DNA of 38,755 bases from a virus: the IMG/VR virus record IMGVR_UViG_3300021964_000184, positions 1-38,755 of that record. One strand, written 5' to 3'. The notes below the pieces were generated by a model, which saw only the letters and a program-made list of their open reading frames with translations, made no database searches and was not told the origin of the DNA. Below are positions 1 through 4,999 of the stretch, one piece after another. The translations under genes were made by a program, and so were the position numbers. Positions within the stretch are counted from its first letter, which is position 1. Every line of letters begins with the position of its first letter.

Positions 1-1
1 G

Positions 2-115
2 CTAACAATGGTTATTAATGAGGAATCGTCCAGATACGAAGCCGAGCTAGCCTTTAGACACTTTCTGGCTGCTGTAGGCTATGTATTTCCATCAGAAGAA
101 TCAGATGATACCTAA
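2..115 (+). CDS. 3' end of an unidentified phage protein (or a complete 35-aa protein)
   Basis: An open frame enters from the left edge and ends with TAA at 113-115. An ATG at 8 would give a complete 35-residue acidic protein ending ESDDT. The seven bases before it hold no ribosome-binding site, so it may equally be the tail of a longer gene. No family is recognised. The stop codon touches the 5' strand of the long-range helix that opens the candidate RNA downstream. Confidence 0.5.
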   Translation, partial: LTMVINEESSRYEAELAFRHFLAAVGYVFPSEESDDT

Positions 116-589
116 GTGAAACGGCTACACCAGTTGTAGTCCTATGAAGAGAAGCTGCGCTTCCTATCGGATCGGGAGTAAGCACGAACTGCCTGTTGAA
201 AAGGGAATAAAAACCGTAAAACAGGGGAGAAACAGGATAACTTGTTTCACTAGTAGTGCTCGTTCTGCTACTATAAATAAGAACGGGCGAGCCAAGCTGT
301 AAGGGCCAACGATAAAATAAAACACAGTCACTCGGGTTTTGTATACTAAGGGAGTGAGTAACAGGAAAGTATACGGTGTTCTACACTACCCCGAGAGTCT
401 TGAGAAGAGGGTAGTAAACTAAAAGGAGAGTCATAGTACTAAGCCGAAGTAGAGATTGAATGGATGAAAGAACCGTCTACCAACTCGGCATTGGAGGCCA
501 GTTATCATAACGTCGATCTAGTATGACTATAAACAGGTGCTCATCGCCTGGAAGATGAGGAAAAAGGGTAGCTAATTTTTTAGCTGCCC
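115..589 (+). ncRNA. Candidate large structured RNA ending in a terminator
   Basis: About 450 bases with no convincing gene but many complementary segments. A long-range helix pairs 115-122 with 244-251 (8 bp) and encloses stems 123-129/135-141, 151-155/159-163 and 192-197/220-225. Further stems are 258-266/280-288 (9 bp), 341-347/368-374, 376-379/383-386, 385-391/409-415 (or alternatively 331-336/390-395), 429-435/522-528, 443-447/485-489 and, nested inside it, 449-453/476-480. Near the 3' end, 534-537/547-550 and 540-545/554-559 interlock as an H-type pseudoknot. A rho-independent terminator closes the region. It does not match tmRNA, RNase P RNA or a tRNA by eye. Large phage RNAs such as GOLLD or ROOL are possible comparisons, but I could not confirm any. 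Confidence 0.6.
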
Positions 590-596
590 TTTTTTT
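566..596 (+). terminator. Strong rho-independent terminator
   Basis: A 10-bp stem (566-575 with 580-589, one G-U pair) and a TTTT loop are followed by seven T. It ends the structured-RNA region and isolates it from the promoter at 602. Confidence 0.9.
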
Positions 597-601
597 ATTT
601 C

Positions 602-630
602 TTGACACCAAGCTAAAAATTTAGTAAAAT
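602..630 (+). promoter_or_regulatory. Sigma70-type promoter for the 682-2374 operon
   Basis: TTGACA at 602-607, a 17-base spacer and TAAAAT at 625-630. It is preceded by TTC, as in the other promoters of this genome. It lies just after the terminator and about 50 bases before the GTG start at 682. Confidence 0.85.
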
Positions 631-681
631 ATATGTATCTGGAAAATTCGACCAGACAATTCGACAAAAGGAAGTACATAA

Positions 682-1011
682 GTGTCAAACGTGATTGACT
701 TTAATAAGGCAAAAGAAAGGATCGAAACGACCCAAACACACGCAGTCCACCAATGGTCCGAAGACCAAATCTGGACAGAGATAGAAAACATCTCTGATGA
801 GTGTGACAACGAATTCACTACATTTCTCGAATTAAATAAACACCTCCTAGAATCTGTAGCATATATGGAAACCCTAAATATCTATCTGGGAGGCTTAATC
901 ATGTCTCACGGAAATAAAACGGGAAACTATGGTGCATGGATGGATTTTTGGAAAAGCAAAGAAGCCGAAGTGCTTCAGCTTGAGTTAGATTTTAATGGAG
1001 ATGACGAATAA
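682..1011 (+). CDS. Conserved-looking acidic phage protein, 109 aa, unknown function
   Basis: First gene after the promoter at 602. It starts with GTG, about nine bases after an AAAGGAAG ribosome-binding site. The protein is acidic and mostly helical in appearance, with a Trp-rich segment near the C terminus (YGAWMDFW) and the ending FNGDDE. No domain is recognised. The next gene starts two bases after its stop, so the two are probably translated together. Its place at the head of a small-protein operon suggests an accessory role, but the sequence does not say which. Confidence 0.75.
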   Translation: MSNVIDFNKAKERIETTQTHAVHQWSEDQIWTEIENISDECDNEFTTFLELNKHLLESVAYMETLNIYLGGLIMSHGNKTGNYGAWMDFWKSKEAEVLQLELDFNGDDE

Positions 1012-2381: not shown

Positions 2382-2404
2382 GGGGCCTTTGTGGCCCCTT
2401 TTTT
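2382..2404 (+). terminator. Rho-independent terminator of the first rightward operon
   Basis: GGGGCC (2382-2387), loop TTTGT, GGCCCC (2393-2398), then six T. It overlaps the stop codon of the convergent glyA gene, so rightward transcription ends at the boundary. On the leftward strand the hairpin lacks a good T tract. Confidence 0.9.
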
Positions 2405-3542
2405 ATGACAGTATAGAGCAGATTCTTTCTGCTAAACTTTCAAACCATTTCTCTTTATGCCCTCTAGTCGTCTCAGCTGCTGTACCAATTCGAACTCCAC
2501 TAGTCTCAACAAAACTGCGGGGGTCATTTGGAATTCCATTCTTGTTTACAGTAATTCCATTCTCTTCAAGAAGGTCTGCAGCCTCTCTTCCAGTGTGCTT
2601 TTTATTGCTAAGATCCAGTAGAATGATGTGAGAATCTGTACCACCAGTAAGGCAGCTAAAGCCTTCATCCTGAAATACAGCACACATTGCTTTTGCATTG
2701 TTTACTACTTGACTTGCATAGGCTTGAAACTCCGGTGTGTTTGCTTCAATAAAACATTGAGCTTTTGCTGCAATTTGATTCATTAAAGGACCGCCCTGTG
2801 TTCCTGGAAAGATTGCAGAATTAATCTTTCGAGTATAGTCTGAATTATTCCAAAGAATGACACCACCTCTAGGACCTCTCAGAGTTTTATGAGTAGTGCT
2901 CGTAACAACATCCGCGTAAGAAATCGGAGAGTCATAGACACCACCAGCAATGAGACCGCTATAGTGTGCCATATCTACAAGTAGTAATGCTCCTACACTA
3001 TCTGCAATGTTTCTCATAGTGCTCCAATGAATCTGTCGAGGATATGCACTTGCACCCGCTACAAGCATCTTAGGTTGAATTACTTTTGCTTGCTCTTCTA
3101 AAGAGTTGTAGTCAATAAACCCTTCAGCATCTACACCGTAGGAATGTGACTCATATACTTTGCCTGAGATATTTACAGAGGCACCATGTGATAGATGTCC
3201 TCCACTTGCTAGATCCATTCCAAGAATACGATCTCCTGGCTTGAGAAATGCTTGGTATACGGCAGTGTTAGCATTTGCACCACAGTGTGGCTGAACATTC
3301 GCATACTCGGAGTTAAACAAAGAACACAGCTCTTCAGTAGCAAGAGTCTCGATCTCATCCATATACTCGCAACCATTGTAGTATCGTTTGCCTGGATAAC
3401 CTTCTGCATACTTATTAGTAAAGATACTACCACTTAACTCCATCACACTCTCACTTGCAAAGTTCTCGCTTGCAATAAGTTCTACTGTAGTTACTTGTCG
3501 TACTTTCTCGTTATTTAGTATCTCACGAACTCTACCATCCAT
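2403..3542 (-). CDS. glyA: Serine hydroxymethyltransferase
   Basis: PLP enzyme that converts serine and tetrahydrofolate into glycine and 5,10-methylene-tetrahydrofolate. The PLP lysine lies in TSTTHKTLRGPRGG (about residue 219). The PLP-ring motif VDMAHYSGLIAGG and the folate/serine-site sequences ELIASENF and NKYAEGYPGKRYY are intact, so it looks catalytically competent. At 379 residues it is shorter than the usual bacterial enzyme of about 415. I chose the second ATG (3540-3542) because GGAG lies nine bases upstream; the ATG at 3549-3551 sits directly on that site. With ThyX at 15952 it would resupply the methyl donor for dTMP synthesis. It is the last gene of the leftward block. Confidence 0.95.
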   Translation of the reverse strand: MDGRVREILNNEKVRQVTTVELIASENFASESVMELSGSIFTNKYAEGYPGKRYYNGCEYMDEIETLATEELCSLFNSEYANVQPHCGANANTAVYQAFLKPGDRILGMDLASGGHLSHGASVNISGKVYESHSYGVDAEGFIDYNSLEEQAKVIQPKMLVAGASAYPRQIHWSTMRNIADSVGALLLVDMAHYSGLIAGGVYDSPISYADVVTSTTHKTLRGPRGGVILWNNSDYTRKINSAIFPGTQGGPLMNQIAAKAQCFIEANTPEFQAYASQVVNNAKAMCAVFQDEGFSCLTGGTDSHIILLDLSNKKHTGREAADLLEENGITVNKNGIPNDPRSFVETSGVRIGTAAETTRGHKEKWFESLAERICSILS

Positions 3543-3543
3543 A

Positions 3544-3708
3544 CTATTCATCTCCTTTTAGTATTTGCATCTTCACCTGTTTTCTAAACCTTTTGTTATA
3601 CCTACGCTTAATCTTTTTAAGCTCACCAGTGCTCCAGTTATAAAATTTACGAGATCTCTTATTTAGAGCATCCCACTCATCTCCTCCACTCATAGGAATT
3701 CTTTTCAT
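3544..3708 (-). CDS. Small basic protein, 54 aa
   Basis: A short gene between glyA and the ParB-like gene. It starts inside the preceding stop (ATGA) and ends two bases before the chosen glyA start. The protein begins MKRIPMSGGDEWDALNK and has a strongly basic central helix (KKIKRRYNKRFRKQVK), consistent with RNA or DNA binding. Its 3' end carries the GGAG used by glyA. No family is recognised. The arrangement supports a real translated gene. Confidence 0.7.
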   Translation of the reverse strand: MKRIPMSGGDEWDALNKRSRKFYNWSTGELKKIKRRYNKRFRKQVKMQILKGDE

Positions 3709-4124
3709 GCTATCTCTCTTTGTCTTATCTCGCTTAGAACACTAAAGGCCCAGTTCAGATCTGGAGTAAGTATAGCATCAATATACTCTACTTCAAGTTC
3801 TTTTGCTATTTCTATTCTTTGATTTCCTGCTGCAGCAATGTATGCTTTCTCAGGTTCAAATGCTAGGATGCATTCGGGTCTTACATTCTGAGAACAACCG
3901 ACATAGTTTTCAAACGAGTTCTCAAGCAGTACAATCGGGTATTTCATACCAATCTGTACAATCTGATCTCGAAGCTCTGAAAAACCTTCCTCTTGTTCCC
4001 GAAGACCTGCGTGAGCTGCGATGGAGCTCATTGGATAGGATGATGCTACCCAGTCTCTTGATTCAATCTCAAGACTGGGTCCAGTTATCATGAAGCTAGT
4101 AATCTCTTTCGTAAGTGCTTCCAT
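3705..4124 (-). CDS. ParB/sulfiredoxin-fold-like protein
   Basis: The segment PECILAFEPEKAYIAAAGNQ, followed by RIEIAKELEVEYIDAI, resembles the core of ParB-like nuclease/sulfiredoxin-fold domains, in which a G-N-x-R motif contacts phosphate and precedes a helix and strand. Known members include nucleases, kinases and DNA-modification partners, so the exact activity is open. A GTG at 4157 would extend the frame by 11 residues. I prefer the ATG at 4122-4124, which has AGAGAGG six bases upstream. It overlaps the glycosyltransferase-like gene upstream by 37 bases. Confidence 0.6.
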   Translation of the reverse strand: MEALTKEITSFMITGPSLEIESRDWVASSYPMSSIAAHAGLREQEEGFSELRDQIVQIGMKYPIVLLENSFENYVGCSQNVRPECILAFEPEKAYIAAAGNQRIEIAKELEVEYIDAILTPDLNWAFSVLSEIRQREIA

Positions 4125-4999
4125 GGTAAGCCTCTCTGAATTTCTGCCGCCTCCCACTGGGCATAGGACAAGTTATAAAATAATTGCTCTCGATCTGGTC
4201 GTTGTAAATCAACTACGTCTTGTGGGTTGTTTTGACAAAGTTCATAAGCAAAACTACTTGGAGAGCAAGCGATTGTTGGACAGCCATGTAGTAAGCTGTC
4301 AATTGCAAAGCCGCTGCTGTAGCATACAGCACAGGACGCAGCTTCTAAAGTAGGGATTAAATTTTCGTAAGTTCCTTTCTGGAAGACCACATTTTTCATG
4401 GGCTTGCGAATCTTTTCCATGTATGGAGAGTTGAAAGCCCTGTCAAGCTGAGGTGTTCTTACAACTATAGGACGATCCGTATACTTACGAATCTCCACAA
4501 TGGATTCGTAAGCCCACTTCTCAATGCTAGCTCCGCGAAGAGACGCATCTGTTGGAAGCTGTAGAGGTAGAATTATGGGACCGTTTGGTTTATAGTTCCA
4601 GGACTGCATCTTTATGTCGAACCAAGACTGAACTTTATCCCAGCGAAGACTATCGCAATCTGCATTGTTGAAGTCCCCTGTATCTGCAAGAAACCCGTTA
4701 ATTCCAATGCGGTACCACGTATCTCTCATGGCTTCTTCCACTTTTTGTCTGCCTAGAAGAGGCGTTTCCATTACTATAAAATTTTTAGCGTTAGAGACTA
4801 TCTTATTTTTAATCTCATGATGACGAGCCTTCATGTTCTTCCACGAACCAAAGAAGACTGCTACATCGCACTCTTCGTATTCGGTTCCTGAATTGACAGC
4901 TACATAATCTCCAGACAGGCTTACGCCTTCTGCAAACCTTAGCAAGTCTCTTTCAAACTGAGGGGCATTTGCTGATGCAGTAAATACGACTACTTTCAT
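4088..4999 (-). CDS. Glycosyltransferase-like protein (GT-B type suspected), 303 aa
   Basis: The N terminus (MKVVVFTAS) starts a Rossmann-like strand. The C-terminal part has the late GT-B or capsule-transferase pattern CAVCYSSGFAIDSLLHGCPTI followed by ACSPSSFAYEL, which resembles the nucleotide-sugar pocket with a surface loop and helix. Full identification is not possible by eye. It lies in a cassette with a nucleotidyltransferase-cupin fusion and two SAM methyltransferases, so transfer of an activated sugar to a surface or nucleic-acid acceptor is likely. It overlaps its neighbours on both sides. Confidence 0.6.
   Translation of the reverse strand: MKVVVFTASANAPQFERDLLRFAEGVSLSGDYVAVNSGTEYEECDVAVFFGSWKNMKARHHEIKNKIVSNAKNFIVMETPLLGRQKVEEAMRDTWYRIGINGFLADTGDFNNADCDSLRWDKVQSWFDIKMQSWNYKPNGPIILPLQLPTDASLRGASIEKWAYESIVEIRKYTDRPIVVRTPQLDRAFNSPYMEKIRKPMKNVVFQKGTYENLIPTLEAASCAVCYSSGFAIDSLLHGCPTIACSPSSFAYELCQNNPQDVVDLQRPDREQLFYNLSYAQWEAAEIQRGLPWKHLRKRLLAS

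Follow-up and report, generated by a model that had tools for sequence, protein, structure and literature searches.

What kind of element occupies positions 115 to 596 of this viral DNA, between a stop codon and a terminator, and does it belong to a larger set of phage RNAs? A first-pass annotation had taken it for a structured RNA without a name, and this description is supported, as the region is noncoding, conserved, rich in pseudoknots, terminated, and located in a slot that holds covarying RNAs in related phages. A structured RNA gene is likely. The reading favored here, at a probability of roughly 0.6, is that 115-596 represents the terminated 3' part of a large multi-pseudoknot RNA locus and belongs, as a lineage-specific variant, to a set of RNAs encoded directly after the gene p1 that had not been recognised before, here called p1-slot RNAs.

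The window and its closest homologue

The window, i.e., the whole stretch of 38,755 nucleotides analysed here, is a 38.7-kb record of an uncultivated marine virus whose DNA polymerase has its nearest counterparts in Proteus, Aeromonas and Vibrio phages (about 43% identity), which are presumably T5-like. Its close relatives in IMG/VR are mostly fragments and do not reach the left end. The only sequence homologue of 115-558 lies in L002 (the same contig as L023 and L333), is 96% identical, and places base 1 of the window at L002:1968. Apart from the contig of L002, exact DNA patterns searched for among viral and genome contigs matched only by chance, as 17- and 18-mers of L004 and L331.

L002 extends the locus to the left. 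Its order is p1 (a PHROG 1725 DNA-binding protein, 1246-1557), a structured stretch, tRNA-Met (1811-1889), a small ORF, the RNA, a terminator (2528-2565), a promoter (2571-2599), and a gene. The tRNA-Met is thus found between p1 and the RNA, an association with a tRNA like that of GOLLD. The main elements of the window are the following:

1-115, plus strand: 3' end of a small ORF, with its stop at 113-115; the ORF has 57 aa in L002:1912-2085, where it follows tRNA-Met
115-558, plus strand: core of the structured noncoding RNA, with no coding signal, conservation relative to L002 and an excess of pseudoknots
559-596, plus strand: intrinsic terminator with 17 pairs, a 4-nt loop and a T-run; 559-601 is unchanged in L002
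602-630, plus strand: sigma-70-type promoter for the next genes, TTGACA-17-TAAAAT, with 11/12 matches; 602-681 is unchanged in L002
682-1011, plus strand: first downstream gene, 109 aa, starting MSNVIDFNKAKER; a related gene follows the slot in L339
1409-1717, plus strand: p2, an HTH-type protein (PHROG 323/1725) and paralogue of p1, which itself lies left of the window edge

The small ORF evolves fast between the window and L002, and L380 has a similar ORF beside a tRNA-Met (the alignment scores 46, whereas shuffles reach 36 at most). There, in slot positions 501-853, a second tRNA-like fragment is found 5' of the ORF. The relation between the window and L339 versions of the gene after the slot is weak. 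Farther downstream, the intergenic stretch 1867-2402 is highly conserved and holds a sequence resembling a promoter and, possibly, a small ORF for a membrane protein with a start near 1938. Similar AT-rich regulatory gaps are present in relatives; as carriers of this RNA, these gaps after p2 were rejected, being AT-rich promoter or regulatory regions. The minus-strand gene at 2403-3551 is a phage-encoded one that resembles serine hydroxymethyltransferase; its L002 counterpart is 89% identical, and those of many other marine phage contigs about 70-76%.

A noncoding region with its own terminator

From the stop at 113-115 to the start of the next gene at 682, no convincing gene is found, in agreement with the first reading of the sequence. 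The sole notable plus-strand ORF, 144-302, carries seven nonsynonymous and two synonymous codon changes relative to L002, and these changes fall evenly over the codon positions [3,3,3], which is not the pattern of a protein gene. A conserved protein frame across the region, which would have spoken against an RNA, was not found.

The terminator that had been proposed at the end of the region is present, with its 17 pairs. With the promoter directly behind it, the next genes can be transcribed afresh, which speaks against the RNA being their leader; a free-standing RNA is favored over a leader because the region has its own terminator followed at once by a promoter. A convincing promoter belonging to 115-596 itself was not seen.

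The core differs from L002 at 21 of 441 positions, whereas the nearest gene downstream has diverged by about 0.29 per fourfold site, and divergence rises sharply at both ends of the region, into more diverged coding sequence. The divergence between window and L002 is nevertheless a mosaic. Since other low-divergence blocks exist (3/43 fourfold sites in 1409-1714 and 4/59 in 3708-4157), recombination may contribute to the high identity.

Pseudoknots and helices of the core

H-type pseudoknots were scanned for as stems of at least 5 bp in which the hairpin loop is almost fully paired with the next 3' stretch. Three of them are found in the core, with scores of -28.6, -19.9 and -16.9. None of 6000 dinucleotide shuffles matches their summed score, and three of 6000 reach the best single score. 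This statistic was picked after the helices had been seen, and it was for that reason calibrated against this and related phages, where the core ranks in the top 0.16% of 47,042 stretches of equal length. The pairings drawn for the core are listed below:

115-251, plus strand: 10-bp helix 115-124/242-251, which would close a 5' domain; invariant in window and L002
159-179, plus strand: hairpin 159-164/174-179, with a compensatory change of U-A to C-G at 161/177 and of U.G to U-A at 162/176
192-225, plus strand: hairpin CCUGUU/AACAGG, 192-197/220-225, kept in window and L002
251-288, plus strand: H-type pseudoknot a, 251-257/267-273 with 259-266/280-287 and an A-rich third loop UAAAUA; score -28.6
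328-376, plus strand: candidate long-loop pseudoknot, 328-333/352-357 with the 9-bp helix 339-347/368-376; pairs in both sequences
385-415, plus strand: hairpin 385-391/409-415, with one U-A changed to U.G in L002
534-559, plus strand: H-type pseudoknot b before the terminator, 534-538/546-550 with 540-545/554-559; score -19.9, identical in L002

Pseudoknot a is the strongest of the entire 38.7-kb window on either strand, and it is retained in L002, where 286 G>A turns a U.G pair into U-A. Between its stems hardly any space remains for the first loop; in the real fold, one or two of the pairs given here may thus be open, or the two hairpins may be alternatives. Pseudoknot b is the one that had been described immediately before the terminator, and it pairs in both sequences. 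The third candidate, 123-157, is absent from the L002 homologue; the other two persist. The long-loop candidate at 328-376 lies beyond the loop limits of the statistical scan, and two of its U-A pairs become U.G in L002.

Pairing is kept by all eight substitutions that fall inside proposed helices, one pair (161/177) having changed on both sides; these helices were chosen with the window and L002 both in view. At least ten helices had originally been claimed for the region, and they can indeed be drawn, the 10-bp and 9-bp ones pairing in both sequences, yet their number and stability are not by themselves evidence of structure. The fold z-score of -2.95 for 115-600 is owed to the terminator; the core without it scores -0.40 and its L002 homologue +0.40, which is the level of shuffled sequences, and minimum free energy was accordingly rejected as proof of structure. 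Covariation among homologues of 115-558, proposed earlier as a check, gave no support: the two sequences available are nearly identical, and when the same substitutions were placed at random and refolded, 31% of the simulated mutants reached the consensus energy, which is not significant.

Comparison with known RNA families

Membership in a known large phage RNA class had been offered as one option, together with a scan of all Rfam families, and neither led to an identification. Rfam 15 contains no match to 115-596 at the gathering threshold. At E<=10, window positions 1-700 give only sub-threshold hits at chance level, mostly on the terminator, and GOLLD and ROOL are not among them. The GOLLD model RF02032, for which more than 150 bits are required, reaches at best 3.9 bits on 23 records (L002 and 22 slot records), and this in a record other than L002. 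The ROOL model RF03087 (more than 99.1 bits required) has no hit at E<=10 in the same 23 records; the control genomes are silent with it too, which makes this a weaker test than the one with GOLLD. Phage and plasmid collections searched with 115-600 yield terminator-sized matches only. The slot RNAs of relatives likewise have no Rfam match and nothing of note to GOLLD or ROOL, and the isolated-phage collection contains no hit for these RNAs or for the p1 protein.

The resemblance to these known RNAs is one of kind. GOLLD (RF02032) is a large phage RNA near tRNAs, at times with a tRNA inside the locus and with a variable 5' part (PMC12286853), whereas the part in the window has only about 450 nt and does not match the model. 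Similarly, ROOL (RF03087) is a large multi-pseudoknot phage RNA often near tRNA islands (PMC12286853), and its model does not match 115-596 either. Both form homo-oligomeric RNA cages whose role is not known, and in one host strain ROOL reaches the abundance of 16S rRNA (PMC12286853). Another phage RNA without an ORF is the noncoding transcript of about 800 bases that is the most abundant transcript of ICP1 (PMC7567579); ICP1, however, is an unrelated Vibrio phage without tRNAs, and the likeness drawn here is one of description.

Slot RNAs after p1 in related phages

The pseudoknot scan led to noncoding stretches of other marine contigs that are located likewise after p1. The p1-slot RNAs are defined in this analysis by a position between p1 and a terminator plus promoter on the same strand, and they include those of L261, L255, L252, L302 and others. 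At least two promoter-like sites follow p1 in 53 of 62 non-redundant p1 loci, and in 49 of the 53 they are separated by at least 600 bases; the median distance over the 53 loci is 1015, and the longest same-strand ORF in the stretches between promoters has a median of 52 codons. Sequence similarity connects the slots of 73 of 80 p1 loci.

The slot RNAs share a motif, GUGAUUGA-NN-CG-U-AGAUN...NAUCU-CG. Its 13 aligned members have 98.1% of cells paired, with none of 500 shuffles as good, four pairs changed on both sides and 15 double-change cells; pairing is lost when the partner strand is slid along. A wider set gives 96.0% of cells paired and 29 double-change cells, again with 0/500 shuffles. 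The model built on the motif finds 39 of the 80 p1 loci, some of which are contigs of the training set. In L255, L256 and L266, both kinds of stem of the H-type pseudoknots show two-sided changes, and 55 of 55 pairs are kept. The slot RNAs after p1 are one family with strong covariation: noncoding RNAs of roughly 0.5-1.2 kb, widespread in marine T5-like contigs, mostly with a promoter, a terminator and the covarying motif, and absent from Rfam 15. Loci include L252:740-1890, L255:2205-2790, L261:2247-3085, L302, L309 and about 60 more p1 loci (L333-L412).

Relation of the region to the slot RNAs

Seen through L002, 115-596 has the location of a slot RNA, between p1 and a terminator plus promoter and on the same strand. 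A terminator-promoter unit like 559-630 also follows the slot in relatives, and the whole L002 slot, of about 1 kb, equals theirs in size. Richness in H-type pseudoknots is shared with the slot RNAs of L255, L256, L266, L257 and L252; the same scan finds no excess in those of L261, L300 and L302. On the other hand, 115-558 has no significant primary similarity to any slot RNA (p 0.055-0.4), and the model of the slot motif finds nothing in 115-596. An apparent alignment of 115-558 with L339, L394 and L412 was rejected, as it does not rise above shuffles.

Homology to another slot RNA is confined to the part of L002 upstream of tRNA-Met, which matches the slot RNA of L339 with 85% identity over 60 nt (E 3e-10). 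This part, L002:1600-1810, is a structured, covarying RNA domain directly upstream of tRNA-Met and left of the window edge. Its stem and pseudoknot have 96.4% of cells paired over L002, L339, L394 and L412, with six pairs changed on both sides. Because this domain matches L339 and covaries, a slot RNA is very probably present in the window phage, with 115-596 as its 3' part or as a neighbor. Probably, then, a larger RNA locus runs across the window edge, and 115-596 is its 3' part. The extent first given to the RNA holds at its 3' end, at the terminator, but its boundaries are probably incomplete, given that the L002 domain lies farther upstream, past tRNA-Met and the small gene. That 115-558 is itself a member of the p1-slot set is probable, if far from certain.

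Alternative explanations

A structured RNA of this lineage's own, not homologous to the large slot RNAs, might instead have taken over the slot, the domain by tRNA-Met being a separate RNA. The absence of sequence similarity and of the family motif in 115-558 would fit, as would the tRNA-Met and the small ORF intervening between it and the conserved upstream domain; however, its strand and its position between p1 and the terminator-promoter unit are those of the relatives, as is the overall size of the L002 slot, so that this explanation is considered doubtful. Considerably less probable is a cis-acting leader or attenuator governing read-through past the terminator toward the gene at 682 and those behind it. 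Attenuators usually consist of a structured stretch ahead of an intrinsic terminator, but the strong promoter at 602-630 can drive the next genes, relatives have a like unit after the slot, and a leader of 450-1000 nt would be very long.

It is similarly improbable that there is no RNA gene at all, and that a noncoding spacer or decayed sequence looks conserved through recent recombination of two phages. The shuffle-level fold energy, the mosaic divergence with its other low blocks, and the availability of two sequences only are consistent with a spacer, whereas the pseudoknot content (0/6000 shuffles), the compensatory change at 161/177, the sharp shift to more diverged coding sequence at both ends, and the slot context with covarying RNAs in relatives argue against it. 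As for a very divergent GOLLD or ROOL RNA, the similar kind of size, the phage origin, the pseudoknots and the nearness to tRNA-Met invite the comparison, all the more since GOLLD env-38 is located downstream of a Met-tRNA and the GOLLD linker may contain tRNAs (PMC12286853). Neither family appears at E<=10 for window 1-700, though, the best GOLLD score of 3.9 bits belongs to another record, and ROOL has no hit in L002 or the 22 slot records, all of which makes this the least probable of the explanations.

Proposed working of the RNA

Under the favored reading of a p1-slot RNA, 115-596 would be transcribed together with p1, the upstream RNA domain and tRNA-Met as a putative transcription unit. 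Transcription would end at 559-596, the RNA would be released or processed, and the next genes would be transcribed anew from the promoter at 602-630, a restart that suggests an RNA acting in trans. Held together by its pseudoknots, it may form a compact and stable particle. ROOL and GOLLD, which it resembles in size, pseudoknots and tRNA neighborhood, suggest by analogy that the RNA is most likely structural and perhaps self-associating, acting in trans; a capacity to oligomerise is presumed from the same analogy, and it could hold or shield a partner such as the adjacent tRNA. A bolder proposal, rather unlikely in its full form, is that 115-596 and the domain upstream of tRNA-Met make up one ornate RNA, about 1 kb long and containing a tRNA, of a new class separate from GOLLD, ROOL and OLE, encoded by most marine T5-like phages with p1 and assembling into RNA-only particles as GOLLD and ROOL do.

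Large ornate phage RNAs are few, and a further class would widen the set formed by GOLLD and ROOL with one that is common in uncultivated marine T5-like phages and absent from Rfam and the isolated-phage collection searched. Small members such as 115-596 could be easier to probe than relatives of 800 nt, and the constant place after one HTH gene, here beside a tRNA, offers a testable handle on function.

Two further loci have a tRNA or tRNA-like features. In L339:1211-1380 (slot positions 18-187), about 170 nt are enclosed by the acceptor-like ends GGCCUCC and GGAGGCCACCA, together with a T-arm-like GAAGGUUCAAUCCCUUC; the look is that of a tRNA or tmRNA, yet ARAGORN makes no call. On the minus strand of L301:1792-2443, about 490 noncoding bases and then a terminator come after a tRNA-Met, another possible tRNA-linked large RNA, for which no similarity was found.
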